NCBI GenBank assembly: GCA_016712865.1
Contig: JADJQH010000002.1
Location: 1,364,001-1,428,000, forward strand
Length of the DNA: 64,000 nt
Source: Dokdonella sp.
GTDB taxonomy: Bacteria; Pseudomonadota; Gammaproteobacteria; Xanthomonadales; Rhodanobacteraceae
Direction of reading: 5' to 3'
Position 1 is the first letter of the stretch. Each line of letters opens with the position of its first letter. Shown one piece after another: positions 9,353 through 52,324 of the stretch. Made by a program: the position numbers and the translations under genes. The notes beneath the pieces were generated by a model. It searched no databases and had not been told where the DNA came from. It saw nothing but the letters and a program-made list of their open reading frames with translations.

Positions 9353-10114
9353 ATGAACCGACGCACGTTTGACTGGTTTTCAACCGGCACCCTGCTGCTC
9401 GTGCTGCTGGCCTTGCCGAAGGCGGTCGCCGCCGCCACCCCAGCCTGGCACGAGCCTGCGGGCGGACCGATCACCCTTCTGCTGGCCGATTTCAATGACA
9501 AGACGGTGGGCCAGCCCATCGGTACCGGCGGTGCCGCAGTGGGGGAGCCCACCTACATTGATTTCGGGGTTTCGGCCATCGTGGAGCAGCCCGTCGGTGC
9601 CAACCGCGTGCTGGCCCTGGAGGCCGATGCGCTGCCAAGCGCAAGCGGCGCCGTATTCAAATTGCTCGGTGGCACCGAAATCGAGGAAGGCCTGGCGACC
9701 ATGAGCGTCGCACTCGCGTTTCCGTCGCTGTGCTCTTTCAATTTGTACGTGCGCGAACGCGACTCCAGCGCACAGAACTTCACCACGCTTGTGCTGAGCA
9801 GTGACGGCAGCATCAGCGCCGTCGACGAGAACGGACCCGTCGGCCAGATCGGCAACTATTCCGCTGGCCAGATCCTGCGCATCTCGATCGAGCATGATCT
9901 CGATGCCGGCACCTACGACGTGCTGCTCAATGATGCCGTGCTGCTGGATGATCGTGCGCACGGCGTGGTGGGTGAAGCTATCGGCAAATTCCTGATGAAG
10001 TTCGAATTTGCGCAGCCGCCGACGCGGGTGCTGGTTGACAACGTCATGGTCGAGGCGAGCGTGCCGCCCGATCTGATCTTCGACAATGGGTTTGAAAGCG
10101 CCAATCCGTTTTGA
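9353..10114 (+). CDS. Secreted protein with C-terminal IFxNGFE tag
   Basis: A 253-residue protein of unknown function. Residues 1-28 are a signal peptide (hydrophobic TLLLVLLALP, then AVAAA). The body is beta-rich and reminiscent of a concanavalin-like jelly roll, without recognised catalytic residues. It ends DLIFDNGFESANPF, a variant of the tag shared by eight proteins in the window. AAGGAG precedes the ATG at ideal spacing. A second secreted gene begins 66 bases downstream on the same strand, so the two may form an operon; the CadC-like regulator is divergent. Confidence 0.7.
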   Translation: MNRRTFDWFSTGTLLLVLLALPKAVAAATPAWHEPAGGPITLLLADFNDKTVGQPIGTGGAAVGEPTYIDFGVSAIVEQPVGANRVLALEADALPSASGAVFKLLGGTEIEEGLATMSVALAFPSLCSFNLYVRERDSSAQNFTTLVLSSDGSISAVDENGPVGQIGNYSAGQILRISIEHDLDAGTYDVLLNDAVLLDDRAHGVVGEAIGKFLMKFEFAQPPTRVLVDNVMVEASVPPDLIFDNGFESANPF

Positions 10115-10180
10115 GCGATCGACAGCAGTCGCCGGCCAGACACGATCCAAGGGGATGATCGAATCATTCGGAGTACGAGC

Positions 10181-13069
10181 ATGAGACGTGGGAAGCTTTT
10201 CTGGATTGCCGCCGGTGTGGCCGTTTGCAGCCCCGTCCTGGCCTATGACCTTGCCCGGCTCAGCCGCGTCGAGGATCCGCTGATCCTTGGCGTGCAAGGC
10301 AATTCCGCGCCCACTGCGTGCGCGATTTCAGACGATGGCGATGTCATCGGCTTCCTGTCCGATGCCACCAACCTGATCGCCGGTGATCTCAATGGCCTGG
10401 CCGATGCCTTCGTCGACACGCCCGCCAACCTGTTCCGCATCTCGCGCGACGCGGGCGGCGGCGAATTGCCGATGCGCACCGATGCCGTGGCGGTCAGCAG
10501 CACCGGCCAGTTCGTCGCATTCCGGGTGAGCACGCCGCCGATAAGCAGCCCCGTCAACGTGACCGGGGAGATCCAGATCTATCGGCTGAACCGCAGCAAC
10601 GGTGCACTGACGCTGGTAGCCGACTTTGACTGGCCCGTCGGCAGTCCCGGCTACGACACCCTGGCCATCAGCAACAACGGTCGCTACGTCGCGTTCAGCA
10701 GCGACCAGAGCCTGGTGGCGGCTGATACGGACGGCGCCTATGACGTCTACCGCTACGACGTGCAGACCGGCAACACGATCCTGGTCAGTGTCGACCAGGG
10801 CGTCAACGGGGCGAATGGCAACGTGTTCAGCATCGCCATGGACGGCAGCGGAGATGTCATTGCCTTTGACAGCAACGAGTCTGATCTCGTCGCCAACGAC
10901 ACCAATGGATTAACCGATGTATTCGTGCGCGGGATAAGCGCTGCCGCCACCACCCGCGTCAGCGTGCGCAGCAATGGCGATCAGGCCAACGGCCTCAATT
11001 TCCTGCTGGATGTTTCAGACGACGGGCTGCACACCTTGTTTTCATCGCAGGCCACCAACCTGGACAGCAACGTGGCCGACACCAATGGAAAGATGGATGT
11101 GTACCGCCACAGCCTGGGTACCGGCAACACGAGGCGCGCCTCGATCCAGGCCAATGGCGACCAGTTCACCAAGGATGCCACGGCCGGTGCCTTGTCCGGC
11201 AATGGCGCACTGGTCTGGTTCGTTGTTTCCCCAACGGGTGACCCGACCACCCAGTTGTGGCGCAAGAACATGGCCAGCAACGACCTGTTCCAGCTGACCA
11301 ACACCGGCGGCGCCATCCTTCAGCAACTGGATGTCGATGCCGATGGTGATGATGCCTGCGTGCTGGCCAGCGCGGCTTCCACCGACCTTGCGACCAACGA
11401 CCGAAATGCGCGCGACGATGTCTATCGCGTCCAGGTGGATGCCAACAACGTGGCCAGCATTTCACGCGAGGGCGAACCCAATGCCCCCATCGCTGCCGCG
11501 GTGACCAAGGAGTTCAGCGAACTGCTCGGCATCGACCATGCCGGAACCCGCGCCGTGATCCGTTCGTACGGCCCGCAGCCGGACAGCGAGACCTTTCTTG
11601 GCCTCGGCGATACGCCAGGGCCACGCGCTTATCTGGTCGACCGCTTCGGCAACGCGGTGGAGACACCCTGCCGCAATGCCCAAGGCGATGCCACCAGCGG
11701 TTCATGCAGCAGCGCCACCCTGTCGGGTGACGGCCAGTACGTGTTCTTCGTCAGTGACGGATCCAATGTGCATCCGGACATGCCCAGTGGCCCCGTGGTG
11801 TTCGAACAGCTGTTCCGCCGCAATCTGCAAACCGGCAGCGTGGATCTTCTGAGCCGGGACACCAATGGTGATCCGGCCGCCTTGGGGGTGCTCGGTTTCG
11901 ATCCGCCGTCGGCGAGTCTGGATGGCAGTCGCGTGGTGTTCCTGTCCTATGCATCCACCCTGGTTGCCGGTGACACCAATGGATTTGCCGATGTTTTCCT
12001 CTGGGATGCCAGCAGCGGCATTCGCCGAGTCAGCGTGAACACCAATGGCACCCAGGCCAATGCAAACTACCTGGGTGCGGCCGAGATTTCCGACGATGGC
12101 AACTTCATCGCTTTCCCGCATTCCGCGGACACCCTGGTCAGCGGTGACAGCAACGGTGATATCGACCTGTTCCTGCGCAACGTGTCCGCCAATACCCTGG
12201 TTCGCATCGCGCAGCCCGGCACGCAAACCACCAGCGGTTCAGGTCTGCTGGAATTTTCCGCCGACGGCGAGCGCCTGCTGTTCCGATCCAGTGCCAGTGA
12301 ATACAGCGACCCGAACAACGAAGACCTGTTCCAATGGACGCGCAGCACCAATCAGGTGGTTCCGCTTTCCTCGCTGGTCAGCGCCCCCGGCACAGTGATC
12401 GAGCCGGTGGCCCTGCTGCCCGGCGATGCCGCCGGATACCTCTACACCATCGATGCAAACCCCAATCAGTACCTGGTCGAGCCGATCATCTACCGTCAGT
12501 ACCTCGGCGGCACCGATCCCATCCACTCCGCTCCGGTCAGTCCCACTCCCTTCGTGTTCGACTACGAGTTCAACCCCGCCACGCCGCTGCGGGTCAGCAC
12601 CGATCAAGCCGTGTTCCTCGGCTACAACTGGGCACTGGACGGTACCGACAACAACCGCGCATTCGACGTGGCCGAGTTGTATTCGGGCTTTGGCTATGCG
12701 GAATTCAATGTCGGCTCCATCGACGTGGCCGAAGACGCCGGCAGCGTCGCCTTCGAGGTGATCCGCCACAACGGCCAGGCCTATTCTGCCGGCGTGCGGG
12801 TTTTCGGCCAGAATGGAAGTGCCAGCAATGGCGCTGATTTCAACATCGATGCTGCGGGCATCCTGGCCAGTTGGGGCAACGGCGTGGATGGTGCGCTGGC
12901 AAAAAACGTCGCGATCCTCGACGACGCGCTGGCCGAAGGCAACGAATCCTTCAGCCTGGTGCTCGGCAATTTCGGCACCGTCCTGCCCGGCGTGGTCACC
13001 ACCCTCACCGTCAACATCATCGACGACGACTCCAATGATCTGATCTTCGCCAACGGATTCGATCCCTGA
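10181..13069 (+). CDS. Secreted beta-propeller protein with C-terminal Calx-beta domain and IFxNGF tag
   Basis: A 962-residue exported protein. A signal peptide (about 1-22) is followed by many TolB/WD40-like blades across about 25-780, each with a variant of S-DG--IAF-S---LV-GD-NG--DVF-. This spacing is typical of PD40-type propellers. Residues about 840-950 look like a Calx-beta domain (VAEDAGSVAFEVIR, LAEGNESFSLVL, TVNIIDDD). The extreme C-terminus, NDLIFANGFDP, is a version of the tag found on other secreted proteins here. Repeated DTNG motifs could bind calcium. It lies 66 bases after the previous secreted gene with CGGAG before the ATG. Its role, perhaps adhesion or surface scaffold, is not established. 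Confidence 0.8.
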   Translation: MRRGKLFWIAAGVAVCSPVLAYDLARLSRVEDPLILGVQGNSAPTACAISDDGDVIGFLSDATNLIAGDLNGLADAFVDTPANLFRISRDAGGGELPMRTDAVAVSSTGQFVAFRVSTPPISSPVNVTGEIQIYRLNRSNGALTLVADFDWPVGSPGYDTLAISNNGRYVAFSSDQSLVAADTDGAYDVYRYDVQTGNTILVSVDQGVNGANGNVFSIAMDGSGDVIAFDSNESDLVANDTNGLTDVFVRGISAAATTRVSVRSNGDQANGLNFLLDVSDDGLHTLFSSQATNLDSNVADTNGKMDVYRHSLGTGNTRRASIQANGDQFTKDATAGALSGNGALVWFVVSPTGDPTTQLWRKNMASNDLFQLTNTGGAILQQLDVDADGDDACVLASAASTDLATNDRNARDDVYRVQVDANNVASISREGEPNAPIAAAVTKEFSELLGIDHAGTRAVIRSYGPQPDSETFLGLGDTPGPRAYLVDRFGNAVETPCRNAQGDATSGSCSSATLSGDGQYVFFVSDGSNVHPDMPSGPVVFEQLFRRNLQTGSVDLLSRDTNGDPAALGVLGFDPPSASLDGSRVVFLSYASTLVAGDTNGFADVFLWDASSGIRRVSVNTNGTQANANYLGAAEISDDGNFIAFPHSADTLVSGDSNGDIDLFLRNVSANTLVRIAQPGTQTTSGSGLLEFSADGERLLFRSSASEYSDPNNEDLFQWTRSTNQVVPLSSLVSAPGTVIEPVALLPGDAAGYLYTIDANPNQYLVEPIIYRQYLGGTDPIHSAPVSPTPFVFDYEFNPATPLRVSTDQAVFLGYNWALDGTDNNRAFDVAELYSGFGYAEFNVGSIDVAEDAGSVAFEVIRHNGQAYSAGVRVFGQNGSASNGADFNIDAAGILASWGNGVDGALAKNVAILDDALAEGNESFSLVLGNFGTVLPGVVTTLTVNIIDDDSNDLIFANGFDP

Positions 13070-15444: not shown

Positions 15445-17214
15445 TCACTCCCCGCTTGTGCCATCGAAGTTGTCGTCGAAGATGCGGTCAACGAAGATTT
15501 CGTAGGCGCCCAGGTCCTGCGGGCCGTGCTCGTTGATCGTGCCGTCGTAGTCGAACACGCGCGGTCCACCATCGCGCGTGCTGTTGAGCGGTGCGGGCGT
15601 GGCGAAATCGATTGCCGGCGAGGCAAGCGCAAGCCGAAAGTTGGCCGAGTTGATGTCGGTAAACAGGGGATCGCTGAGCAATCGCTCACTGGATGCAGGC
15701 AGGCCGGAAAAATCATTGCCGATCAGATAGCGGAAGCACCCCGACACCAGCGACGAAGATGCCTCGATCAGCGGATGCGAAGGCTGCCAGATGATGCTGC
15801 GCAAAACGTTGCTGCCGCGCTCATCGTCATTCGGGTCGCAACCACCAACACCCTTGATCACGCCGCGACCCTGGCCAAACAGGTTGGACGCGATCGTGCT
15901 GGCCGTCAGCACCAGCGAGTTCGCAGTGCCGGGTGCATCCAGCATCACGCCACTGGCATCGTTGCGCACCAGCAATGCGCCGTTCAACTGGATCTGTCCG
16001 AAGTTGCCGGTGTGACGGGCGATCGAGGTGCCGGTGTTGGATTCGATGCGCGTGCCGGCGAAGGCAGCGTGTGCCGAATACGCAACCGGCGCATCGACGA
16101 TGACGGCGGCGCCAGGGGCGCGCTCGCCGTCGTCATCGTCAATGGCACGGTTTCCACGCACAAGGTTGCACGCTTCGGGGTCGGCGCAGTTCACGGCGGC
16201 CGCAGGCCCGCCGGCGCTCAGGTTCTGCATGTGGAAGCGCGAATCACCTTGCGTACCGCCAATCACCAGCACGCCGCCGCCACCGGCACTGGCGGTGTTG
16301 TTCTCGATATTCGCGTTGTACATGACCATTTGCGCACCATCCGTCACCGCAACGCCACCGCCACGCACCGCGGTGTTGGTGGTGATGCGTGCCGGAAAGA
16401 ATGGATCGATCGTGTACATGTCGACCAGGCCATCGGAGCCGGACAGATAGAGGCCGCCACCGTTTCCCCCGGCGGTGTTTCCCCACAGCACGGCGCCGTT
16501 GACGCCGCTGGATCGAATCTGCAACAGGCAATCCTGTGCGTGGATGCCGCCGCCGTTGCCACTGGTCGAGTTCAGCGATACATGGCTGTTGTCAAACAGC
16601 ATCACCGTCGCGCCGGTGCACTGGATGCCACCGCCGATATCCGCACCGTTGCTGCTGACTGCGGAATTGCCGAACATCAGCAACTGCATGGCAATCGGTT
16701 CACTCTGCGCGCTGGTGTTGATGATCGATATGCCGCCTCCCGAGAAAGCCTGGTTGGAGCGCACCAGGGTATTGGACAGGCTCAGGACGTCTCCGCCAGT
16801 ACCCGCAGCGAAGATGCCACCGCCGCTCGGGTTGGCCCTGCCGCCCTGCACGTCCAGATCAAAAAGAAACACGTTGGCACTGTCGAGAATGCGCAGCACC
16901 GGTTGTGAGCCGTTGCCATTGAGCACGGTGCGCGCACCCGGCGCAGGCGCGTTGCTCTGACAGGTGGGAAATCCGCCGGCCAACAACAGCACGCCCTGCG
17001 CCTGGTCGATCAGGATTTGCTGCTGGGTGTATGCCTGGCTCTGGCTGATGCGGATTTCATCGGCCTCGACACTGGCCACCGCCGCATTCACCGCCGCCTG
17101 GATCGTGGCATGCGTGCAGCCCGCGCCGCTGCCGACGCGATAGAGTGCGGCAGCGGCCGGCAAGGACAACAACAGGCCGGTCATTCCGGCCAGCAGGGAA
17201 GCGGTACGCAGCAT
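15445..17214 (-). CDS. Secreted right-handed beta-helix protein, choice-of-anchor-Q-like, with IFDDNFD tag
   Basis: About 589 residues. A signal peptide (1-24) is followed by the entry segment YRVGSGAGCTHATIQAAVNA, shared with the two other beta-helix proteins in the window, then a long beta-helix with repeated SNQAFSGGGI/NTAVRGGGV coils. Near the end comes a choice-of-anchor-Q-like segment (DPLFTDINSANFRLALASPA ... GPQDLGAYE), a module that elsewhere precedes sorting signals. Here it is followed by VDRIFDDNFDGTSGE, a variant of the window-wide tag. The start at 17214 is the first Met before the signal peptide. It lies 101 bases downstream of a larger paralogue on the same strand and shares an upstream motif with it. 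Confidence 0.8.
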   Translation of the reverse strand: MLRTASLLAGMTGLLLSLPAAAALYRVGSGAGCTHATIQAAVNAAVASVEADEIRISQSQAYTQQQILIDQAQGVLLLAGGFPTCQSNAPAPGARTVLNGNGSQPVLRILDSANVFLFDLDVQGGRANPSGGGIFAAGTGGDVLSLSNTLVRSNQAFSGGGISIINTSAQSEPIAMQLLMFGNSAVSSNGADIGGGIQCTGATVMLFDNSHVSLNSTSGNGGGIHAQDCLLQIRSSGVNGAVLWGNTAGGNGGGLYLSGSDGLVDMYTIDPFFPARITTNTAVRGGGVAVTDGAQMVMYNANIENNTASAGGGGVLVIGGTQGDSRFHMQNLSAGGPAAAVNCADPEACNLVRGNRAIDDDDGERAPGAAVIVDAPVAYSAHAAFAGTRIESNTGTSIARHTGNFGQIQLNGALLVRNDASGVMLDAPGTANSLVLTASTIASNLFGQGRGVIKGVGGCDPNDDERGSNVLRSIIWQPSHPLIEASSSLVSGCFRYLIGNDFSGLPASSERLLSDPLFTDINSANFRLALASPAIDFATPAPLNSTRDGGPRVFDYDGTINEHGPQDLGAYEIFVDRIFDDNFDGTSGE

Positions 17215-17315: not shown

Positions 17316-20300
17316 TCAGTCCGCTTCAAACCCGTCGCGGAACAGCACGATGATGTCGGTATCGACCACGCTGATTTCGCCGGCATTGGCGCTGAAGCCG
17401 AAGCTGGCCAGGGTTTCCGGGGTGACGGCGCGCACCGGCACCTGCACGATGTAGGTCACCTGCCCGCCGATCGGCAGATCCACGCTGTCGTTGAACCCGC
17501 CACTGCCTGCATTGCCGCAACTGGCGCCACCTTGCACGGTGCAGCTCCAGGTCGAGGCAGCACCATCCAGCGCGGCACTGACGGCGCCGGCTACCGGCAC
17601 ATCGTTGGCGGCCGCCGTGCCGGTGTTGCGCACGATGGCGGTGTAGACCAGGGTCTGGCCGTAGCGCACGAAGCCGGTGCCGTTGTCGATGCTGCCCGAG
17701 AGCACGGCATGTGGTGCGTTGGAACACGCCACCGCCACGTTGCCCACATCCTCGGCCGGCATGCTGCCGCTGCCGTTGCTGACGGTGCAGAACAAACCCG
17801 ACGGTTGCGACTGCACGCTGACCGCGTAGTTCGCACCCACCGCCACAGCGGTGGCGAAGGCAAAGCCGGTGGCGCCTTGCGGGACACCGTAGGTTCCGGC
17901 CGGCGTGCCGTTGGTGCCCAGTTGCAGTACCAGGCCCGTCGCATCGACGCCGCTGAGGGTTCCACCGACATATTGCGGTATGACCTGAAGCATCTGCGTA
18001 CCGCTGCTGGCCTGGAAACGCGCGTCACCGGCATAGCTGGCGGTCACCTCGACATTGGCACTGAATGTCGCAGGCGTCAGCACGCAAGTGGTCGCGGGCA
18101 AGGTGATCGTGCAAGTGTCCGATCCGCCGGTCACCGTGATCGTGCCCGTGGGCGTGCCATTGCCGGGCGCAGTCACCCCGAGCGTGGCCACGACGTTTGC
18201 GCTCTGGCCAAAGCGGATCGCTGGAATGGGTGGCACCGTCGTGGTGGTGGCGGCGCGGTTGACCACCAGATTGATCACCTGCGAGGTGTCCGGGGTGTTC
18301 AAGGCATCACCGGCGTACTCGGCGGTGAGGACATGTGTACCCGGCTCCAGCGCATCGGTCGCGATGCTTGCCGAAAGTCCGCTGATCGGTGCCGTGCCCA
18401 GCACGTTTGCACCATCGCGGAAGGTGATGTTGCCGGTAGGCGACACGCCATCCACAAGGTTCGCGCTGATGATGAGCGTCTGTCCGAAAACCGCTGGATT
18501 GGCGCTGACGCCGAGATTCAGGTTTGTCTGGTGGATAAAGGAAACCACGACATTGCACGAGGCTTGGACGGCGCCGGTGGTGTAGGTCGGCGCGCTGAAT
18601 GAGCCGATCGGGCAATCACCCGCCGGTGGCATCACCGCACTCCAACCACTGGCAGGGCTGACCACGATGCTGGCGGTCTGTCCGTAGGGCACGCTCTGCG
18701 CGGGAGGGTTGACGCTGCCACCCGATGTTCCGAGTCCCGCCGTTACCGTTGTCAGGAAGCTTTGCTCGAAAGCGCCCAGATCCTGCGGACCGAAACGATC
18801 GGAAACGGCAGGCAGATTGATCGCGCGCGGCCCGAGGCCCAGCACCACGTCATCCGGGAAGGCAGGCGCAAAGTCGAGCGCCGGTGAGGTCGATGCAAGG
18901 TGATATTCACCAGTCGACACGTTGACGAACTGCGGATCGATGGCGAGCCGGTCGGGCGCCGTACCCAACCAGCCGAAGTCGTTGGCGATCAGATGGGTAA
19001 AGCAGCTCGCTTGCGGAGGATCAAACAAGGTGAACAACAGGCTGTGCCCGGGCTGCCAGATGATGCTGCGCCGCAAATGGACACCCACCGCATCGTCTTG
19101 CGGAGCACAGGTTGTTCCCGTTCCAAACACGGTTGACGATGGATTCATGAACAGGTTGTTGGCCACCGAGCTGGCCGAAAGCACCAGGGCATTGCTTGCG
19201 GATTGCGAAACGAACGCACCGAAACCCCCGTCGATACGATTCTCGGCGATCAGGCTTCCGTTGATGGAAACCCGACTCGGTGCGGATTCCTGAGAAACCA
19301 GGCTCAAACCACGATTGGACATGATGCGCACGCCACGAAGATCCACCTGCGCCGTTCCTGCACCGCCGGCGGCAACCTGCAACACCGCTCCGGGCATCGC
19401 GTCACCGGAATTGTTGATCGCCCGATTGAAAAAGATGCCCGCGCACTGCTCCGGATTGGGACAGGTCGTGGCATCTTCGGGCGCACCCTCCAGCGTGCTC
19501 TGCATGAGCACCCGGGTATCGATGCCCGCCGCCCCACCCGGCATCACCCACAGGGCACCTCCGGCGACGTCGGCCAGGTTGTCGAGCAGAAAGCTGTTGC
19601 CGTACATGTTCAGGCGCGCGCCATCGGCCACGGCAATTCCGCCACCCTCGCGCGCCCGATTGCCGTGCACGACCACGCTTTCGCCAGCGACCACCGGATA
19701 GAAATCCGCTCGGGCACGCACGCCGGTGAGGTACAAGCCACCGCCCCGCCCCTGCAGTGCCGCGGTGTTGCTGTACAGGGCACCCAGCCCTGCCGGGCCG
19801 ATGGCCGAGATATCCAGCTCACAGTCCACCGCATGAATTCCGCCACCATCGAGACTTCCGGCAAAGCCGGCAACCCCGACCCGGTTTTCGCGAACCGTGG
19901 CGTAGTTGCGCATCTCCAATCGTGCATTGCTGCAGGCGATGCCACCGCCACGCACCGATGCGTTGTTGAATCCGACGATGGAGTTTCCGATCAGTTGCAG
20001 GCTTAGACGTTCCGGCATCGTGGCGGTGTTGTAGTTGGCCAGCCGGATTCCGCCACCTTCCGTGGCGCTGTTGTGGACCACGTGGGTATTGTCCAGGGTG
20101 ATGCGACTGGTCGCCGTTCCGGCTCCGGTTTCCAGTACGAGCCCGCCAACGTAGCCATCACTGATTTCCAGATTGCGCAGGGTCAGGTCGGCGGTATCGG
20201 CCACCTGCATCACGGGATTGCCGTTCAATTGCGAGGGCCCGGATACCACCGTGCGCACACCGGGCGTCGGGTTCGGACTTGTGCAGGTGGCGAAGCCACC

Positions 20301-20543
20301 GTTGATCGCCAGCGCACCGTGTGCCGCTTCGACGGCAATCGTGAGTTGCTGGCCGGTGAACGAGGCACCGGAGAGGCGGATTTCGTCGGCCACGTTGCTG
20401 CTGGCGGCATCGGCGGCATCGATGGCGGACTGGATCGTGGCGTGGGTACAGGCCGTCCCACTGCCCACCGTATAGATGTTGGCGAATGCGGGGGCCGCAG
20501 CAAGGGCGGTGGCGAAGGCAAGGCAAAGCGGCAGACGTTGCAT
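17316..20543 (-). CDS. Large secreted beta-helix protein with Ig-like repeats and LFRDGFE tag
   Basis: A 1075-residue exported protein. A signal peptide (1-21) is followed by YTVGSGTACTHATIQSAIDA and a beta-helix to about residue 480, ending in a choice-of-anchor-Q-like segment (DPQFVNVSTGEYHLASTSPA, FGPQDLGAFE). Two or three Ig-like modules follow (AEYAGDALNTPDTSQ and ASYAGDARFQASSGT are the Big_3-type signature), then a DUF11-like module (VRYGQTLVYTAIVRNTGTAA). The C-terminus is DTDIIVLFRDGFEAD. Start 20543 is supported by the signal peptide; the frame stays open upstream on the antisense of the kinase gene. It is divergent from the cassette 2 sigma gene, 141 bases away, and is a plausible target of that sigma factor. 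A role in surface adhesion is inferred. Confidence 0.82.
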   Translation of the reverse strand: MQRLPLCLAFATALAAAPAFANIYTVGSGTACTHATIQSAIDAADAASSNVADEIRLSGASFTGQQLTIAVEAAHGALAINGGFATCTSPNPTPGVRTVVSGPSQLNGNPVMQVADTADLTLRNLEISDGYVGGLVLETGAGTATSRITLDNTHVVHNSATEGGGIRLANYNTATMPERLSLQLIGNSIVGFNNASVRGGGIACSNARLEMRNYATVRENRVGVAGFAGSLDGGGIHAVDCELDISAIGPAGLGALYSNTAALQGRGGGLYLTGVRARADFYPVVAGESVVVHGNRAREGGGIAVADGARLNMYGNSFLLDNLADVAGGALWVMPGGAAGIDTRVLMQSTLEGAPEDATTCPNPEQCAGIFFNRAINNSGDAMPGAVLQVAAGGAGTAQVDLRGVRIMSNRGLSLVSQESAPSRVSINGSLIAENRIDGGFGAFVSQSASNALVLSASSVANNLFMNPSSTVFGTGTTCAPQDDAVGVHLRRSIIWQPGHSLLFTLFDPPQASCFTHLIANDFGWLGTAPDRLAIDPQFVNVSTGEYHLASTSPALDFAPAFPDDVVLGLGPRAINLPAVSDRFGPQDLGAFEQSFLTTVTAGLGTSGGSVNPPAQSVPYGQTASIVVSPASGWSAVMPPAGDCPIGSFSAPTYTTGAVQASCNVVVSFIHQTNLNLGVSANPAVFGQTLIISANLVDGVSPTGNITFRDGANVLGTAPISGLSASIATDALEPGTHVLTAEYAGDALNTPDTSQVINLVVNRAATTTTVPPIPAIRFGQSANVVATLGVTAPGNGTPTGTITVTGGSDTCTITLPATTCVLTPATFSANVEVTASYAGDARFQASSGTQMLQVIPQYVGGTLSGVDATGLVLQLGTNGTPAGTYGVPQGATGFAFATAVAVGANYAVSVQSQPSGLFCTVSNGSGSMPAEDVGNVAVACSNAPHAVLSGSIDNGTGFVRYGQTLVYTAIVRNTGTAAANDVPVAGAVSAALDGAASTWSCTVQGGASCGNAGSGGFNDSVDLPIGGQVTYIVQVPVRAVTPETLASFGFSANAGEISVVDTDIIVLFRDGFEAD

Positions 20544-20574
20544 GGTCGGTCTCGTTGGGAGGCTTGGACGTATC

Positions 20575-31135: not shown

Positions 31136-31429
31136 TTACTGGTTCTCGAACTGCCCGGCAAACACGCGATCGGTTGGCAGCTGTGTGCTGGTGCCGCCGA
31201 CGTTGACGCTGGTGTTGGCACTCGCCGAAATGCCCACCGGCTGACCGCTGCCTCCAACCAGGAAGGCCTGATACAAAGGCGACGCTTCGGCGCCCGCAGT
31301 ACTCGCCGGCGACGAGGCGATCAGCCGGTAGTTGTTGCTGGCCGAGCCGGCCCAAAGCAACGGCGCTGCCAACGCGAGCGGCAGCAGCGATGCCCACAGA
31401 CAGCGCGTGATTCGCGGACTTCTGGTCAT
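31136..31429 (-). CDS. Small secreted protein ending in VFAGQFE
   Basis: A 97-residue protein: basic N-terminus, hydrophobic signal segment (about 9-28, ending LLWAGSA), then a low-complexity Ser/Ala/Gly/Thr-rich body with no known domain. It ends TDRVFAGQFENQ, which lines up with the IFADGFE tag of the larger secreted proteins. The Met at 31429 is chosen as the start of the signal peptide. It lies 8 bases downstream of a broken beta-helix gene in the same direction, so it was probably the second gene of that operon. Confidence 0.55.
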   Translation of the reverse strand: MTRSPRITRCLWASLLPLALAAPLLWAGSASNNYRLIASSPASTAGAEASPLYQAFLVGGSGQPVGISASANTSVNVGGTSTQLPTDRVFAGQFENQ

Positions 31430-31437
31430 GGCGCGAC

Positions 31438-31835
31438 TCACGGGCAACCGCTGGCTATGAAACCAGTGCCCTGTTTGGTATTGCCCGAGCACGTCAAGGT
31501 TGCACCAGCGGCACAGGAAGTCCCCTGCACATGGCTGCTGACGAGGTCGAGGGTGCCGACGCCACCACCGAGCGCGCAATCGGCAGTCGGGGGTGCGATG
31601 CTGATGATCTCGATGCTGGAATTCTGTACGTCGATATCTGCGCCAGCACCGCTGGTCAGAACGCCTCCATGAGACTCCCCGTCGGCACTGCGCAGTACGC
31701 GCAAGCTTGAATTGACGATCGTTGCCTGCCCCGTCCCTTCAAATGCGCGGCTCTGCGCCGAGGTATCCGCAGGGTCGACATGGCCGACGACGACGCTGGA
31801 ATTCTCCAGTCGCAGCGCACTGAAGCTGCGCTACC
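31438..31835 (-). pseudogene. C-terminal remnant of a beta-helix-like secreted protein
   Basis: An open minus-strand frame from about 31835 to a stop at 31438 encodes repeated LENSSVVVGH, IVNSSLRVLRS and VQNSSIEIIS coils and a Cys-containing tail (FIASGCP). This is the style of the large secreted beta-helix proteins in the window. The N-terminal part and signal peptide are missing: upstream the frame stops at a TAG and sequence changes to a gene on the other strand. It appears truncated by a rearrangement near 31810-31835. Confidence 0.5.
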
Positions 31836-36380: not shown

Positions 36381-38759
36381 ATGAACCACCACGTGCGAAT
36401 TCACAGCAATCGGCTTGCCGCGCTGGCAATGCTGCTTGTATCCGTATCCCCTGTTCACGCCGCCATCTTCACGGTGGGTTCCCCGGTGGGCAGCGGCCAA
36501 TGCACACACGGCACCATCCAGTCGGCAATCAACGCCGCCGAAGCCAGCCCCGGCTTGGACACGATCCGGCTGACCCGTTCGCTGACCTATGAGCCGGAAG
36601 CCAACTCGATCAACACCAGCCAGGAACTCGTGTTGGAAGGGGGTTTTGCCACCTGCACACAGGCGAGTAGTGATTCGCAGAAGACCGTCGTCAGCGGCGC
36701 CGGCGGGGCAACAGAACCGGTATTCCGCATCACGGTCAACACTGGCGGCTTCGTGCGGTTGCGTTTCCTCACCCTCAGCGGAGGTGACGAGGACGGCAGT
36801 GGAAAAGGCGGCGGCATCTACTTCAACGGAAACGGCATCCTGGAGGTACGCGACAGCCTCATCACGCAAAACCTCGCCGGCTATGGCGGCGGCATTTACG
36901 CTCAAGGCCTGGGGTCCGATGCAGAACTGGTGATTGGTGCCAACGTGATCGTTTCAAACAACACGGCTCGCTACAGCGGTGGCGGCATCGTGGCCGACCA
37001 GATTGAAATGTCGATGCTCGAACCCGGAAGCATCCTGTTCTATAACGAAGCACTTGGCATCGGCGGAAACGGTGGCTTTGGCGGTGGCCTCTACATCTTC
37101 GGTGGCACGCGTTCTTCGTATGCCTACATCGGCAGCGGCTCCGGCACACTGGGTGCCATCTATGGCAACAGCGCTGTCTATGGCGGTGGTGTATCAGTAG
37201 GTGGTTCCAGCGAGAATTTCAGCGAATTTGAATCCGCCCAGTTGCAAATGTTCACCAGCGACCCCGCGTATCAGGCAAAAATCTCCAACAACTTTGCTTC
37301 GGTCGCCGGTGGCGGCATTCATTTGCAATCCTTCGCCAGCGAATTTGATGGCCTGGTATATGCCTCTGCCGATCTATGGAATGCCGTGCTGGAATTCAAC
37401 GCCGCCCCGGAGGGGGCTGCCGTTTTCGTGCGCGGATCGGATGCGCCGCTGGTCAGCTTCGATTCGGGCGCGTCGTTCGGGCTCAATGCGGCGCCCTTTC
37501 CTGCCGACGCCGTTCAGTGCGTCGAAGGCAAGCCTTGCGGCGGCCTGATCGGCAACGTCGCGGAAAACATCAACGGTCAGCCCAGCCCCGGGTCGGTGAT
37601 ATATGCCACCAACACGGCGGAAGTTGGAATTGGCCGGTCCGAGTCTTCTGCCCCGGTCCCGGCGGGCGGCGTGCTCATCCAGGCCAACGAAGGCGTTCAT
37701 CTGGTCAACGCCGCGGATGACGATGAGTGCCAGCTCTACCTGCACAACGCGCTGATCAGCGACAACCAGACCAGTCAGGCGCTGATTCGCATTGATTGCG
37801 AAGGCACGTTCTCGGTGGTCGACTCCACCATCACCAACAACACGATCGGTGGCAGCAAGTTGCTCACCAGCAACGATTCCACGGTCACCCTGGCACGCTC
37901 GATCCTGTGGCAACCCGGCCTGACCTCGCTCACGCGCAGTGGCGGATCACAGAGCATCACCGCCATGATTGCCAGTGAAGTCGGCAGTCTTGGCGGCGGT
38001 TTCGAGGCAACATTTGCCAATCCACGATTCATCGACCCCGCGCATGCCGACTTTCGCTTGCGTGCAGCCTCGCCAGCCGTCGACTTCGCCACGGCGGTCA
38101 GCGGCGATGATCGCGATGTGCTGGGCCTTCCGCGCGACCAGGATCTGCCGATCAAGGCCAACGTGCGCGGCGTGCGCGACGTGGGCGCGTTTGAACGCCA
38201 GTCCATCCAGCCCCTCGTTCTCAATGCCGACTTTGACTTTGCCGACCTTCGCCTGTGGACCTGGTTCGCCGGGGCATGGGACGGCACGCAGAACGTCGCC
38301 GGCGGCGCTGGCTCGGGCTCGTGGAAATTCCAGATTACCGACACCCAGACGCCGCGCTACTTCGTTGGTCAACAATGCATCCACCTGCCCGGACCGGGTC
38401 GTTACACCCTCAATGGCCGCGGCAAGGGCGGCGGCAACACGGTGGCCAATCGTGACTACGCAAAACTGGCTTGGGAATTGCGTACCAGCGGCACCGAGCA
38501 ATGCAACGCCGGCGTTGCGAACGTTTCGGGCGAGTTGGGCATCGGTTCCGGCACAAGCTGGGGCCAGGCTGCGCAACCGGCCATCATCGACTTGGCACCG
38601 CAAGACTGGACGCCCACCAGTTCGATCACCGTCACCCTGATCGCAGAAGATGGCGGCGTCAGCTTCCCGCGCAACATCAGCGCATGGTTTGACGGCATCA
38701 CCCTGGAAGTGGATGGCAGCGACGTCATCTTTGCCGACGGCTTCGAGACATTCAATTGA
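36381..38759 (+). CDS. Secreted beta-helix protein with IFADGFE tag
   Basis: A 792-residue exported protein. A signal peptide (about 1-28) precedes FTVGSPVGSGQCTHGTIQSA, the same entry segment as the beta-helix proteins at 15445 and 17316. The helix follows with GGGIYFNGN, GGGIYAQG and GGGIVAD coils. A choice-of-anchor-Q-like segment (NPRFIDPAHADFRLRAASPA, then VRDVGAFE) is followed by a jelly-roll module and the C-terminal VDGSDVIFADGFETFN. AGGAAA precedes the ATG. The gene follows kinase 3 by 190 bases. GTCGCAA-N9-ACTTGGCGTT lies 37 bases before the start and loosely resembles the motif shared by its two paralogues. Confidence 0.82.
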   Translation: MNHHVRIHSNRLAALAMLLVSVSPVHAAIFTVGSPVGSGQCTHGTIQSAINAAEASPGLDTIRLTRSLTYEPEANSINTSQELVLEGGFATCTQASSDSQKTVVSGAGGATEPVFRITVNTGGFVRLRFLTLSGGDEDGSGKGGGIYFNGNGILEVRDSLITQNLAGYGGGIYAQGLGSDAELVIGANVIVSNNTARYSGGGIVADQIEMSMLEPGSILFYNEALGIGGNGGFGGGLYIFGGTRSSYAYIGSGSGTLGAIYGNSAVYGGGVSVGGSSENFSEFESAQLQMFTSDPAYQAKISNNFASVAGGGIHLQSFASEFDGLVYASADLWNAVLEFNAAPEGAAVFVRGSDAPLVSFDSGASFGLNAAPFPADAVQCVEGKPCGGLIGNVAENINGQPSPGSVIYATNTAEVGIGRSESSAPVPAGGVLIQANEGVHLVNAADDDECQLYLHNALISDNQTSQALIRIDCEGTFSVVDSTITNNTIGGSKLLTSNDSTVTLARSILWQPGLTSLTRSGGSQSITAMIASEVGSLGGGFEATFANPRFIDPAHADFRLRAASPAVDFATAVSGDDRDVLGLPRDQDLPIKANVRGVRDVGAFERQSIQPLVLNADFDFADLRLWTWFAGAWDGTQNVAGGAGSGSWKFQITDTQTPRYFVGQQCIHLPGPGRYTLNGRGKGGGNTVANRDYAKLAWELRTSGTEQCNAGVANVSGELGIGSGTSWGQAAQPAIIDLAPQDWTPTSSITVTLIAEDGGVSFPRNISAWFDGITLEVDGSDVIFADGFETFN

Positions 38760-38992
38760 TCAATACCGATTGCATTCGATCTCGACGGTGGCGCACGGCA
38801 TCCGCCCATTGCTGGGCGCCACCGCGCAAAGGCCATTCCGCCCAACCACGGATCTGAGGAACGCACCGTGAGCCTGTTCATTCCACACAACCACGTGGTT
38901 GCCAGCATGCCGCCCGATACGGAGCTGACTGCGGGCTCCGAACTTCGTCCGCTCGTGCGGGATTGCCGTTTGCATTTGCACGGGAGACTTCC

Positions 38993-39724
38993 ATGATCCG
39001 AATTCCACTGATGCTTGTGCTGTGCCTGGCTTCGGCTTCCGCCGGAGCACAAAACCTCGCCCTCAATGGCGACTTCGACACCGATCTTTCCGGTTGGCTG
39101 ATCGATCCACTGGTCACGCAACCAACGTGGGCCAACTTCGACATCGGTTCCGCCGCATCCGGTTCGGCGCGCCTGGACAACAGTTCGGCTACGGCGCTTG
39201 ACCGCATCTATCCGCTTGAACAATGCATTGCGCTGACCCAACCGGGACGCTACGGAATTGTTGCCCACGGCTTCATCCCTCCCGGTCAAGCCGGTGGAAA
39301 ACTGGTGGTGAGCTACTGGCTGTCGCTGAACAATCCCGACTGCCCGCTGTTCCAGGGTGTCCAGGCGGCGGGTGGCCAGTTCATCACCACGATCAACGCC
39401 TGGGGACGCTTCGAGCAGTGGCTGACCGTGGAGGTGCCATCACCGGTGCCAGCCAATGCGCGGATCAAGATCAGCCTTGGCATCGAAAAAGACAATGCCG
39501 GCGGCACTTTCCACGGCTACTTCGACGCCATATCGGTTGTTGCCGATTCTGTTTTCGCCAGCGGGTTGTTTGAATTAAGGACATCAACCAAGTTTGGCTG
39601 CCGGCATGCCGGGGCCATTGCCGGTACGCACAAGAAAACCCGCGATCGCTGCGAGGTTTCCCTGTTGCAATGTGACACCGCCCCACCACGCAGCCCGCGG
39701 CGCAGGCCAGAGACATGCCGATGA
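38993..39724 (+). CDS. Secreted protein with damaged C-terminal tag
   Basis: A 243-residue protein: signal peptide (1-19, LMLVLCLASASAGA), then a carbohydrate-binding-like jelly roll (LALNGDFDTDLSGWLIDP ... GYFDAISVVADS) similar to the C-terminal module of the preceding beta-helix protein. Where tagged proteins read IFADGFE, this one reads VFASGLFELRTS and translation continues about 50 residues into repeat-derived sequence. One extra codon (TTG) within the tag and loss of the original stop would explain it. Mature size and export are therefore uncertain. It lies 233 bases after the beta-helix gene. Confidence 0.6.
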   Translation: MIRIPLMLVLCLASASAGAQNLALNGDFDTDLSGWLIDPLVTQPTWANFDIGSAASGSARLDNSSATALDRIYPLEQCIALTQPGRYGIVAHGFIPPGQAGGKLVVSYWLSLNNPDCPLFQGVQAAGGQFITTINAWGRFEQWLTVEVPSPVPANARIKISLGIEKDNAGGTFHGYFDAISVVADSVFASGLFELRTSTKFGCRHAGAIAGTHKKTRDRCEVSLLQCDTAPPRSPRRRPETCR

Positions 39725-43265: not shown

Positions 43266-45506
43266 ATGCGCACACGCCTCGGCACTTCGGCGGCTTTGAT
43301 GGTTCTCGTACTGATTCTGTCCAGCACTCCGGCTTCGGCCCAATTTGTCTCCCTCGTGGGCGGTCCGCCGCCAGTGCAGGATTTCAACGCTTTGGCCGCG
43401 AGCGGAACCAGCTCGACACTGCCCAATGGCTGGTATCTGGCCGAAACCGACGACAACGCCAACAGCGAATACCGGGCTGGAGATGGTTCCAGCAACACCG
43501 GCGATACCTACAGCTTCGGCGCCGGCACGGACAGCGAGCGCGCCTTCGGCACCCTGCAGTCCAGCTCGCTGGTTTCGCGTATCGGCGCGCAATTGCGCAA
43601 CGACAGCGGCTTGGCGGTTACGGAAATCACGGTGAACTACACCGGCGAGCAATGGCGCCTGGGCGCAACCGGTCGTGCCGATACCTTGAAGTTCGAATAC
43701 AGCGCCAATGCAACCGGGCTGAATGATCCGGCCGCGAACTGGACGCCGGCCTTGGCGCTGGATTTTGATTCGCCAACCACCACTGGCGCGACCGGCGCAC
43801 TGGACGGCAATGCGAGCGCCAACCGCACTGCGATCAGCGCCGCCATCAATGGCTTGAACGTTGCGCCCAACGCAACGCTGTGGGTGCGCTGGAGTGATGT
43901 CGGCGTGGCCGGCTCGGATGATGGCCTGGCCATCGACGACGTCAGCTTTTCCGTTGATGGCGAACCGCCGGTCGACAATCCGCCCCAGGTGAGCAGCACA
44001 GTCCCCGCCAACGGGGCCGTTGGCGTGGCGCTGAACGCAAGCATCAGCGTGACCTTCAGCGAAGCAGTCACCACGTCCGATCCGTGGTTCACCCTGGCCT
44101 GTACGGTGTCCGGCACACACACGGCAACGGTAAGTGGCGGCCCTGCCAACTACACGCTGACACCATCACCGATGTTTGCAGCCGTTGAAACCTGCACCTT
44201 CACCGTTCTTTCCAGCGGCGTGATGGATAACGACCCACCTGCGAATGCATTGCCCGCCAATGTCGCGGTCAGCTTCCAAACCGAAGACCCAAGCGCCTCG
44301 CCGCCTACCGTGGTTTCCATCCAGCCTGCCGATGGTGCAGTGAACGTGCCGCCTGCCGCCGACATCCGCGTGACATTCAGCGAATCGGTCAGCACCTTGC
44401 CTGGCGCGTTTTCCCTGAGCTGCGATGCCAGCCCGGTAACGCTGATTGAAACCGGCAGCGGTGCGCAACGCACGTTGACGCCGGATACCGTGTTGCCGCA
44501 GGGCGCCGCTTGCGTTTTCAACATCACGGCCAGCCAGGTCACCGACGCATTCAATGTGCCGATGACGACGAACGTGAGCAGCGATTTCACGGTCAGCGCC
44601 GGCACCAGCAGCTACTACGACCAGGTCAACACCAGCAGCCCCGGGCAATTGCGTTGCTCGCTGCACCACATCATCCGTGGCCACACGGCGTATCCCTACT
44701 TCGGTTCCGGCACCAATGCCTGGACCATCCTGGAACTGGCCCAGGAAAACCCGGCCAACCCGAACCAGATCATCGACGTGTACCGCAACCGCGCCTATGC
44801 CACGGTCACCGATCGCGCCGGCGGCAGTTCGTCCATCACCTACAACCGCGAGCACACCTGGCCGAATTCGTTGGGCTTTCCCGGCAACACCGGCAACCTG
44901 GGCCTGCCGAATGCGCCCTACACCGACACCCACATGCTGTGGCTCTCGGATACCGGTTACAACTCGAACCGGGGCAACAAGCCCTATGCCAACTGTGATG
45001 CGTCCTGTGGCGAACGCGTTACCGAAGTCAACGGCGGCGTCGGAGGTGGAAGCGGAGCCTATCCAGGCAATTCCAACTGGGTGCGCGGCCCCGATGGCAA
45101 CCAGGGCAGTTTCGAGGTGTGGAAGGAAATGAAGGGCGAGATGGCGCGCGCCATCTTCTACATGGCCATCCGTTACGAAGGCGGGGTGGATCCGACCAGT
45201 GGCCAGAACGAGCCGCAACTGGAGCTAACCGATATCCGCAGCAACATCGTGCAGATCAACAACTACTCGCAAACCGCCTACATGGGCCTGCTCGCCGACC
45301 TGCTGGCCTGGCACCAGGCCGATCCGCCCAGCGCGGCCGAAGTCGCACGCAACGATGTCATCATGAGTTTCCAGGGCAACCGCAATCCGTTTGTCGATCA
45401 CCCGGAATGGGCCACCCGCGCGCTGTTCGAGTCGGTCAACCCGACTATCTGCGAGCTGGGCAATGATGTGATCTTTGCCGATGGCTTCGAAGTGTTTGTA
45501 CCGTGA
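43266..45506 (+). CDS. Secreted endonuclease I (EndA/NucM type) with Ig-like domains and IFADGFE tag
   Basis: A 746-residue exported nuclease. A signal peptide (1-24, ending TPASA) is followed by a beta-rich module (about 30-235) and two SbsA/Big_5-type Ig-like domains (about 238-440, each with PANGAVGV or PADGAVNV and a VTFSE strand). The endonuclease I domain occupies about 450-735: YNREHTWPNS (His530) carries the beta-beta-alpha-metal catalytic His, and FQGNRNPFVDHPEW is the family's C-terminal signature. It should degrade DNA outside the cell. The end is NDVIFADGFEVFVP. The gene sits between the tandem array and cutA, inside an otherwise conserved backbone. Confidence 0.9.
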   Translation: MRTRLGTSAALMVLVLILSSTPASAQFVSLVGGPPPVQDFNALAASGTSSTLPNGWYLAETDDNANSEYRAGDGSSNTGDTYSFGAGTDSERAFGTLQSSSLVSRIGAQLRNDSGLAVTEITVNYTGEQWRLGATGRADTLKFEYSANATGLNDPAANWTPALALDFDSPTTTGATGALDGNASANRTAISAAINGLNVAPNATLWVRWSDVGVAGSDDGLAIDDVSFSVDGEPPVDNPPQVSSTVPANGAVGVALNASISVTFSEAVTTSDPWFTLACTVSGTHTATVSGGPANYTLTPSPMFAAVETCTFTVLSSGVMDNDPPANALPANVAVSFQTEDPSASPPTVVSIQPADGAVNVPPAADIRVTFSESVSTLPGAFSLSCDASPVTLIETGSGAQRTLTPDTVLPQGAACVFNITASQVTDAFNVPMTTNVSSDFTVSAGTSSYYDQVNTSSPGQLRCSLHHIIRGHTAYPYFGSGTNAWTILELAQENPANPNQIIDVYRNRAYATVTDRAGGSSSITYNREHTWPNSLGFPGNTGNLGLPNAPYTDTHMLWLSDTGYNSNRGNKPYANCDASCGERVTEVNGGVGGGSGAYPGNSNWVRGPDGNQGSFEVWKEMKGEMARAIFYMAIRYEGGVDPTSGQNEPQLELTDIRSNIVQINNYSQTAYMGLLADLLAWHQADPPSAAEVARNDVIMSFQGNRNPFVDHPEWATRALFESVNPTICELGNDVIFADGFEVFVP

Positions 45507-48960: not shown

Positions 48961-48975
48961 ACGACACGAAGGTAG

Positions 48976-50380: not shown

Positions 50381-50965
50381 TCAAACGCGCGTCCGGCGAG
50401 CGCTGGCGGCCGCAGCGACCAGCAATATAGCAAGCGACAGCAATGCGAATGATGACAAGGTTGGAATCGCGCGCGCTGAATCGACGCCACGGCGCAGCGT
50501 GACGACACTTACATTGTTGGCGGGATTGAGATCCTGATAGGAAGAAGGCAAGTACAGCCCAAACGTCCACATGTCGGGCGCGGCCGAACCCACTGGAAGG
50601 GTGAGGTGACAAGTTCTTGTTTCACCAATTCCAATGGGACCTCCGAACGTTGGAATCCAATTGTAGTAATAGTAAACGGTCTTTCCATCTGCAACGACTA
50701 GCCCTAGATGCTGACAGTCAGATGTGCCGAGACCAAGATTGAATTCGCTAGTAAATTGAGAACTGGTTGCAACAAACGTCGGGACGATTTCTGGGCCGTG
50801 GTTTGTAACAGATAACGTGAATACAACGGGTTGCCCTGTGACTAGCTCGCTGTTCGGCTCAGCGACGAGATGCACGGCTACATCAGAAGGAATTACAACG
50901 GAGCCGCCCCAGGCCGACGCGGCGATACACAGCAGGACCAATCCGAGTGTGCTGCGGACGAACAT
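50381..50965 (-). CDS. Secreted protein with IPTL-CTERM sorting signal
   Basis: A 194-residue protein. A signal peptide (1-20) is followed by a beta-sandwich resembling DUF11/CARDB-type modules (VVFTLSVTNHGPEIVPTF, LNPANNVSVVTL). The end is IPTLSSFALL, a hydrophobic helix and a basic ARRTRV tail: the three-part IPTL-CTERM signal, which is recognised by a membrane sorting protease. No such protease is encoded in the window. Its ATG directly follows the TAG of the metallopeptidase gene, so the two are co-translated. Confidence 0.78.
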   Translation of the reverse strand: MFVRSTLGLVLLCIAASAWGGSVVIPSDVAVHLVAEPNSELVTGQPVVFTLSVTNHGPEIVPTFVATSSQFTSEFNLGLGTSDCQHLGLVVADGKTVYYYYNWIPTFGGPIGIGETRTCHLTLPVGSAAPDMWTFGLYLPSSYQDLNPANNVSVVTLRRGVDSARAIPTLSSFALLSLAILLVAAAASARRTRV

Positions 50966-52324
50966 CTATTCGAACCCATCCGCAAAAATACGATCCACAC
51001 TGCTCCGCCAATGCCAGGCGTACGGCGAGACCAATGCAATAACCCGCGCATTTTCTTCGTTGACGCCCCCCGTATGGAAAAGAACGCCATCCACGAAAAT
51101 GTCGACCTGGTCGTTGGCATAATGAAGCACCGTCGGGCACTCGCCCTCGCACTCGGGGTCGGGTGGCTGGGCATCGAACTTGTATGACAGCAGGCTACGA
51201 TGGCCCCCCTTCTTGGATGCCATGGGGTTCTCCCAATGGGCCTGCGCCCACGGTACCAGCGGCGTCGTATTGCTGTTGCTCTCGGGATTGTGGTTGCCGC
51301 CGAGGATATGCCCGAATTCATGCTGGAACGAATAATCGCCCAGATCGCAGTCACGCACGCTGACACCGAGAGCAAATTCGGCAAAGCCCGCCGGCTGCGG
51401 AGCACCGCCAAATCCAGGCGTGTAGGCTTTTCCGCAGTTGCCTTGCGACTTGGATTCCCGCACCAACATGACGATATCCGCGCCCCAGTAGTCGCGAATA
51501 TTGACTGGCAGTGAAGTTCCGTCGAGGCCTTGCAAATACAGCAAGTCTTCACCCATCGTCTCCGTCTCGCCACGCGGCACTTCCTGCGCATGCACCAAGT
51601 GCACACCCGTCAACGGAAAGCCGGTTTGGCTGCTGGCACTGTTGATCATCGCCTGCTGGGTCTGGTCGGCGAGATGCTGCATTGCCATTTGCACGTTGGC
51701 GCTGCCGACGGTCTGGGTCACCGTCGGCGTGTACAAGATCAGCACATCGATGCGGTCGTCCAGCAATGGCGTGAACGGCTGATCCAGAGACGAGAATTCT
51801 TCCGGCAAGGCCATTGGCGGACTGCCGTTTACCGTCGCCACATCGTCCATGGCTTCTGGAGGCGTGTTCCCAAACACATGGCGGGTCAGGCGCGCGCCGG
51901 TTGGCGACAGGGCGATCCGGTAACTGCCATCCACGCAGGAAATGGTCCCCATCAGGCGATTCTGGTATGCCGTGAAGATGGCACTGCAGCCGTCACCGTG
52001 ACCTGACCAGACGAACGCGCCCGGGCCTCGAATTTGTCCGCGATCTCGAGTGAGTGTGGAAATGCCTCGATCGGGCAGGTTCAGATCGATCCAGTCCGGC
52101 AAGTCCGCCAACCTATCCACGTTCATCTCAACCGGCCATTCCGTCGCCGCTGAGGGACTCGCCCATGCGCCAGGTATCTCGGAGACACCCACGCTTCTGA
52201 ACACCAGCGATGATGGCGGCTCACCCAAGCCCACCCATTCCAGCTCGACCGTTGCCAAAATCGGCGTCGACGCCAGCGCGAACACGAGTCCGACGACCGA
52301 TGAAAATTTACGTTTCCTTTTCAT
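50966..52324 (-). CDS. Secreted metzincin-type metallopeptidase with IFADGFE tag
   Basis: A 452-residue exported zinc protease. A signal peptide (about 1-25) is followed by a propeptide-like region and a reprolysin-like catalytic domain with HEFGHILGGNH (His335, Glu336, His339, His345). After it, SLLSYKF lies where metzincins have the Met-turn, with Leu in place of Met. The protein ends SVDRIFADGFE, the cleanest form of the tag in the window. The start at 52324 is the Met before the signal peptide. The IPTL-CTERM gene begins at the next base after its stop, suggesting partnership, for example substrate, inhibitor or anchor (inference). Confidence 0.85.
   Translation of the reverse strand: MKRKRKFSSVVGLVFALASTPILATVELEWVGLGEPPSSLVFRSVGVSEIPGAWASPSAATEWPVEMNVDRLADLPDWIDLNLPDRGISTLTRDRGQIRGPGAFVWSGHGDGCSAIFTAYQNRLMGTISCVDGSYRIALSPTGARLTRHVFGNTPPEAMDDVATVNGSPPMALPEEFSSLDQPFTPLLDDRIDVLILYTPTVTQTVGSANVQMAMQHLADQTQQAMINSASSQTGFPLTGVHLVHAQEVPRGETETMGEDLLYLQGLDGTSLPVNIRDYWGADIVMLVRESKSQGNCGKAYTPGFGGAPQPAGFAEFALGVSVRDCDLGDYSFQHEFGHILGGNHNPESNSNTTPLVPWAQAHWENPMASKKGGHRSLLSYKFDAQPPDPECEGECPTVLHYANDQVDIFVDGVLFHTGGVNEENARVIALVSPYAWHWRSSVDRIFADGFE

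Follow-up and report, generated by a model that had tools for sequence, protein, structure and literature searches.

Why should eight proteins with dissimilar bodies end in nearly the same few residues? The question arises from a window of 64,000 nucleotides of a Dokdonella sp. genome (contig JADJQH010000002.1, positions 1,364,001 to 1,428,000), in which a sequence-only reading had picked out such a tail and proposed that it is a new sorting tag. The tail has the nine-residue consensus D-x-I-F-x-[DN]-G-F-[DE]; we searched for a strict motif, I-F-x-[DN]-G-F-[DE], and, at the DNA level, for a looser form, TNTTYNNNRAYGGNTTYGA. On a slight balance of probability, comparisons of genome sequences lead us to regard this tag as a candidate linear signal at the C-terminus, for secretion or surface sorting, that is linked to one lineage of the type II secretion system (T2SS). 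Handles beginning with G, C, L, f, and g denote genomes, contigs, loci, families, and genera, respectively.

Position and conservation of the tail

Translation of the open reading frames (ORFs) returned all eight C-termini as first quoted, with motifs of unequal quality. Five fit the strict motif (ORFs ending, at the stop, at 10114, 13069, 38759, 45506, and 50966), the tail at 17316 (IVLFRDGFEAD) matches the looser form only, and those at 15445 (DRIFDDNFDGTSGE) and 31136 (DRVFAGQFENQ) are weaker variants that neither DNA pattern matches. A claimed ninth tail, the degenerate DSVFASGLFE, is not terminal, since its ORF continues for another 49 residues; L110, similar by eye to this ORF (38963 to 39724), finishes with the full tag. 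The looser pattern has six matches in the window against an expected mean of 0.01 (100 dinucleotide shuffles, none of which reached six).

All 46 strict matches in the genome to which the window belongs (G000, 3.75 Mb) were read individually; the reversed pattern has none. Since 42 of the 46 lie in frame and 0 to 11 residues ahead of a stop codon, which 15 of them adjoin directly, the position of the tag is overwhelmingly terminal. One of the 42, L025, sits in an ORF of just 39 amino acids. Of the remaining four, two precede the stop by 21 and 27 residues and one by 90, and the last (L018) is followed by at least 136 stop-free residues. As had been claimed from the window alone, no hydrophobic helix or basic tail follows the motif in those 42 cases. 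In L012 (C2:1222892 of the same genome), a further 90 residues follow the tag and close with a hydrophobic stretch and basic tail, giving the impression of two stacked tail types. The tag also occurs in tandem, with copies about 10 to 13 residues apart: at one protein's end in L050 and in L351, and at G035:C1:871665 and 871701 (matches only).

Conservation is evident at the protein level. An Asp stands two residues ahead of the Ile in 38 of 44 tails, though the search pattern left that position free, and the same tails have D or N at the [DN] position in 32 and 12 cases and end in E or D in 25 and 19. All 46 tag 21-mers are distinct and mix synonymous codons, which indicates that what is selected is the peptide rather than a DNA repeat. 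The protein bodies, once the tails are removed, fall into 30 BLAST clusters of at most five members, so the unrelatedness noticed in the window extends to about 30 sequence groups genome-wide. On a crude score for signal peptides, 31 of 38 tagged ORFs pass versus 23 of 67 other ORFs from the same stretches, some of them spurious (p = 4.9e-6), in keeping with the earlier claim that the tagged proteins have signal peptides; a laxer scan of all start sites, which had no control set, yields candidates in 40 of the 46, of which one is doubtful.

We scanned 44 tagged proteins from this genome and nine window ORFs with Pfam and NCBIfam. Among the 44, Pfam assigned reprolysin-type metalloproteases (6), subtilases (3), glucose/sorbosone dehydrogenase-like proteins (2), one GH44 protein, one endonuclease I, and assorted repeat domains. 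NCBIfam matches, tallied at E <= 0.01 and not at curated cut-offs (below which the window proteins' matches fell), comprised choice-of-anchor Q (5), Mep72 metzincin (4), an MXAN_5453 MYXO-CTERM-anchored family (1), and myxosortase-dependent M36 (4) and rhombosortase-dependent M36 (4) families, the last two possibly matching the same proteins. Judging by these family names, some tagged proteins may be relatives of proteins that carry other sorting tails elsewhere. No model covering the tail was recognizable by name for the nine window ORFs or among the best 25 of 32 Pfam and best 25 of 33 NCBIfam families of the 44 proteins, which agrees with the earlier statement that the tail has no named family. 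A literature search found no description of the tag in titles and abstract openings, a coverage outside which most subscription papers and preprints fall; some hits appear to be accidental letter matches within run-together text.

Distribution and co-occurrence with a secretion lineage

Almost all occurrences of the tag fall within a part of the order Lysobacterales. Strict matches were found in 96 of 298 genomes of the order, with a maximum of 136 per genome, while the reversed control mostly gives none and in a few genomes one or two. The class sample of 276 genomes includes 272 from outside the order, which hold 0 to 3 strict matches each (60 in total versus 21 for the control, counted without individual reading). 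Among the matches listed, named records with tag and stop include Marinicella, Tahibacter, Dokdonella, Rudaea, and Pseudofulvimonas. All 117 tails read in named loci terminate with the motif, as the search pattern itself demanded a stop there. Three metagenome-assembled genomes (MAGs) labelled Alcanivoracaceae carry the tag; two of them share GspD coordinates with f9 genomes from the sample of the order and were therefore treated as order members.

A profile screen for partners took in two families, exosortase and GspD (TIGR02517). Most tagged genomes, among the matches listed, have two strong T2SS secretins, which we assign to a PDZ-containing lineage (gspC-D-E), T2SS-A, and to the commoner T2SS-B; genomes with and without GspD-A are called A+ and A-. 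The two GspDs of the window's genome are about 24 to 28% identical. In a tree of 67 secretins, a B clade of 16 stands apart from the other 51, and A largely tracks families; the f2 secretins of G199 and G212 fall outside the A clade. The program flags a long-branch join at the root of this tree. GspC-A carries a PDZ domain (PDZ 32.3 at 23.2 for family f9, L171), and the type B GspC frame of the window's genome, 240 residues long, has no evident PDZ part by inspection, without a domain scan.

We searched the 298 genomes by tblastn with the GspD-A of the window's genome, scoring three candidates per genome, so that misses can occur. The cut, chosen after the scores were known, admitted matches of at least 42% identity scoring about 450 bits or higher, as well as contig-edge pieces; it left out f2 matches of 36 to 40% identity (about 300 to 340 bits) and matches of about 280 bits to the C-terminal part of the query alone (nine f2 genomes of g34, and G225 and G266 of f1). 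Genomes with at least five tags were A+ in 62 cases and A- in 4, and those with fewer than five were A+ in 26 and A- in 206 (Fisher p = 7.7e-38). Twelve chosen genomes were re-examined, namely all seven in which three or more tags occurred without GspD-A and five more, and contig-edge pieces of GspD-A came to light in G109, G114, and G139. GspD-A is then present in 64 of the 66 genomes with at least five tags; in the two exceptions, G047 and G058, it was not detected and other secretins alone were found. A transporter accompanying the tail, as the sequence-only reading had envisaged, is thus found in the T2SS-A lineage. A further 16 genomes, behind named loci, had each been preselected for a tag match. 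Loose hits number 10 or more in 14 of them, five of which share coordinates with genomes of the 298; GspD-A was present in 13 of the 14 (as fragments, 45 to 58% identical, in G570, G573, and G576). It was not found in the remaining two, which have 2 and 5 such hits and are labelled Planctomycetales and Bacillota. Near restriction of the tag to T2SS-A genomes suggests that the tail is an address label read by T2SS-A, or by something co-inherited with it.

Genomes with GspD-A and few tags, and A- genomes, were read more closely. Of the 26 A+ genomes with fewer than five tags, 23 hold fewer than three: 15 of genus g32 (f10), two of f7, and G059, G073, G130, G180, G207, and G285. Family f7, A+ and without a strict match, carries a [LV]F variant of the tag: 11 of its 12 loose hits are C-terminal tags, 10 of them 0 to 2 residues from the stop and one the upstream member of a tandem pair, and the twelfth is non-terminal. 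A terminal tag was found in five of nine g32 genomes, at one locus per genome and in one case in an ORF of 65 amino acids, and all three loose hits in G059 are non-terminal. The secretins of G207 and G285 are mutual closest relatives across two families and were therefore probably acquired horizontally; that of G180 forms a long branch. In 37 A- genomes there are 23 loose hits, of which 17 (from 12 genomes) were read; none is terminal in an ORF of more than 100 amino acids, and two sit in short ORFs, of 61 and 39 amino acids, at 11 and 5 residues from the stop.

Orthologues of the window's endonuclease I bear on the same relationship. Five A- genomes of family f2 (G057, G092, G127, G199, and G208) encode orthologues 66 to 70% identical to it, and all five stop immediately before the tag position. 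The tag is kept in two relatives from named loci, L103 and L134 (45 and 51% identical), and more distant A- relatives from f1 (G061) and f2 (G067) are also tagless at the end. G199 also has two loose hits by pattern count. On this protein, the tag appears to behave as an add-on module.

Weighing of alternative readings

Shared ancestry limits how far the co-occurrence can be pressed. The gene rpoB was sought in 67 genomes and found in 63, and a tree was built of 60 (G030, G188, and G200 were omitted, and G018 is represented by one of two pieces). The rpoB match in G018 (G018:C1:576375-580425) is split in two and has a very long branch in the tree; this genome has no GspD match. Seven changes are required on the tree for each trait, tag and GspD-A. 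Across random pairings, two to five of seven independent pairs agree, none oppose, and the rest are equal, which is not significant; the test used strict tags and scored f7 as untagged. Since a sign test on so few pairs is unable to reach 0.05, the Fisher value overstates the independent evidence, and since independent evolutionary events are few, some other co-inherited partner may be involved instead.

Further observations weigh against a tag read by T2SS-A. GspD-A went undetected in G047 and G058 (10 and 6 strict tags), in G088 and G133 (3 and 4), and in G578, which has 41 loose hits; conversely, the 15 g32 genomes and the six single genomes named with them above have GspD-A and few or no tags. 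Outside the order, the strict pattern stands somewhat above its control. The A- endonuclease relative L301 (f8) ends in a different long extension, and G057 and G199, whose orthologues are tagless, hold a more distant secretin, 38% identical, outside the A clade. Tagged genes are not generally adjacent to T2SS-A (in the stretches read, strict tags number three in the window's genome and one each in two others), and gene clustering was not used as evidence. Finally, one paper describes T2SS as lacking a universal linear signal (PMC12369372), and another indicates that common linear sequences are apparently absent among T2SS substrates (PMC7949064).

If the favored reading holds, the tag would be a short linear C-terminal signal carried by Sec-exported proteins, marking them, once folded in the periplasm, for outer-membrane export or cell-surface placement via T2SS-A (GspC with its PDZ domain, GspD-A, and GspE), which would work alongside T2SS-B. 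Components of T2SS-A would have to read the tag, a step that we infer; our guess is that the reader may be the PDZ domain of GspC or the N-domains of GspD and that contact may be made through an exposed hydrophobic I-F / [DN]-G / F-[DE] pattern. In Vibrio cholerae, the EpsC PDZ domain is required for one cargo (PMC12369372). The fuller proposal, that a nine-residue tag is read by T2SS-A (possibly by the GspC PDZ domain), is transferable between unrelated proteins, and is lost together with that T2SS, we hold only tentatively, at somewhat below an even chance.

Several other explanations would also yield a shared tail. We consider it unlikely, though the best of these alternatives, that the tag is read after or beside export by a surface receptor, transpeptidase, or processing enzyme co-inherited with a T2SS-A that only carries the cargo. 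MYXO-CTERM and GlyGly-CTERM set a precedent, in which the tail is the substrate of a separate enzyme and export is left to T2SS (PMC11980579); some tagged proteins resemble families named for these very anchors, and with so few independent co-changes, other co-lost genes may fit as well as T2SS-A, two candidate families having been screened. The tag itself, however, has no membrane helix, basic tail, conserved Cys, or Gly-Gly, and it tolerates 0 to 11 trailing residues, which is compatible with a transpeptidase site and demanded by nothing. Exosortase (PF09721) does not fit as the partner: it is missing from the window's genome and occurs in 19 of 34 tagged genomes versus 9 of 42 without strict tags. 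A screen by eye of 15 recurrent neighbor genes, including Ser/Thr kinases, extracytoplasmic function (ECF) sigma factors, and a DUF11 protein, revealed no evident sorting enzyme. An ECF-like gene was seen by eye near T2SS-A in two f9 genomes (L171 and L169).

Less probable still is a structural or quality feature (a last beta-strand, a folding or stability element, or a cue for a periplasmic chaperone or protease), with the tie to T2SS-A arising from shared ancestry and repeated loss. Such a history would suit the trees, on which tag and GspD-A each occur in many families of the order and are lacking in the same large groups, and phylogenetically corrected support for the tie between tag and GspD-A is weak. 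A structural element is harder to reconcile with a tag found on unrelated sequences and absent from close endonuclease orthologues that presumably fold without it; moreover, none of the 17 loose hits read in A- genomes is terminal in an ORF of more than 100 amino acids, and f7 retains both T2SS-A and a variant tag. A mobile or repeated DNA element overlapping gene ends could also give rise to a common ending, and short repeats do lie downstream of a few tagged genes. Codon and frame data refute it as the source, leaving it a negligible probability: no two of the 46 21-mers agree, synonymous codons are mixed, AT-rich genomes use other codons for the same peptide, and 42 of the 46 matches are in frame and terminal. 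Of what the sequence-only reading proposed, then, a sorting-tag candidate stands that is terminal, conserved as protein, borne by unrelated and mostly signal-peptide-bearing proteins, and co-occurrent with T2SS-A; two of its eight tails are weak, and its ninth falls away.

Tagged genes of the window and known systems

Table 1. ORFs of the window with the tail or a variant of it
Coordinates	Strand	Protein	Tail and position	Residues after tail	Basis
9353..10114	+	Secreted protein, unrecognised fold	DLIFDNGFE, 10070-10096	SANPF	Translation, strict match, simple signal-peptide score
10181..13069	+	PD40 propeller + Calx-beta protein	DLIFANGFD, 13037-13063	P	Translation, Pfam, strict match, simple signal-peptide score
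15445..17316	-	Beta-helix-like protein	DRIFDDNFD (weak), 15463-15489	GTSGE	Translation; Beta_helix below Pfam cut-off
17316..20570	-	Ig-like (Big_3_5) protein, beta-helix-like part below cut-off	LFRDGFE (loose), 17325-17345	AD	Translation, Pfam, loose match
31136..31579	-	Small ORF	DRVFAGQFE (weak), 31145-31171	NQ	Translation alone
36381..38759	+	Choice-of-anchor-Q-like protein (below NCBIfam cut-off)	DVIFADGFE, 38721-38747	TFN	Translation, NCBIfam, strict match, simple signal-peptide score
38963..39724	+	ORF with degenerate tail	DSVFASGLFE, 39545-39574	49 residues to ORF end	Translation
43266..45506	+	Secreted Big_5 + Endonuclease I protein	DVIFADGFE, 45465-45491	VFVP	Translation, Pfam, strict match, simple signal-peptide score, orthologues
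50966..52324	-	Metzincin (Reprolysin_5)	DRIFADGFE, 50969-50995	None (extreme C-terminus)	Translation, Pfam, strict match, simple signal-peptide score

The tagged ORFs of the window are listed in Table 1, and two of them have neighbors that recur. A DUF11-like protein (50381 to 50965, minus strand; 23.2 bits, cut-off 24.6) directly adjoins the metzincin and seems by eye to end in an IPTL-like tail, hydrophobic and basic. Homologues of it adjoin three further metzincins of the same genome (L011, L016, and L033), and proteins similar to it by eye adjoin Marinicella metzincins (L086 and L104). Just upstream of the choice-of-anchor-Q-like protein, an ECF sigma factor and a Ser/Thr kinase with TPR repeats are encoded at 32708 to 36190 (plus strand); a kinase cluster has 25 members in 20 of 157 screened sequences (156 loci and the window).

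C-terminal sorting tails of secreted proteins are familiar from PEP-CTERM, with its exosortase, and from IPTL-CTERM. Our tag differs from both in having neither hydrophobic helix nor basic tail, and the window's genome gives no exosortase match. The tripartite architecture of motif, membrane helix, and basic tail that PEP-, IPTL-, GlyGly-, and MYXO-CTERM share was not seen in the 42 of 46 proteins that end 0 to 11 residues past the motif. The type IX secretion system (T9SS) is closer in concept: its C-terminal domains, of about 80 residues and an Ig-like fold, serve as a cargo label on many unrelated proteins and are read by an outer-membrane secretion machine. The tag would embody a similar idea in nine residues.

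Both MYXO-CTERM with myxosortase and GlyGly-CTERM with rhombosortase resemble the tag in that a single C-terminal tail marks many signal-peptide-bearing proteins within a lineage, and their proteins cross the outer membrane by T2SS (PMC11980579). They differ from it in that the tag has no invariant Cys, Gly-Gly, membrane helix, or Arg-rich end; no processing enzyme was found for it, exosortase being the sole one sought by profile. Even if T2SS-A were merely the carrier, the tag would flag many proteins of Marinicella, Tahibacter, Dokdonella, Rudaea, and relatives as probably extracellular or surface-located and would permit their automatic annotation.

How T2SS chooses its cargo is a long-standing open question, and no common linear signal is known (PMC12369372, PMC7949064). 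Recognition as described there involves loops of PelI and Pel3 and, for VesB, an Ig-fold together with the EpsC PDZ domain. The tagged proteins resemble known T2SS cargo, which consists of exported folded proteins, with the GspC PDZ domain implicated in the choice of some (PMC12369372, PMC7949064): they mostly bear Sec-type signal peptides by the simple score, and a T2SS, recognized by GspD-A, accompanies them in 64 of the 66 genomes where they are numerous. A short tail on dozens of proteins, mostly missing where T2SS-A is missing, makes cargo choice cheaply testable. Whereas the T2SS signals described there are loops or folds of single cargo proteins, here dozens of unrelated proteins carry one linear tail.

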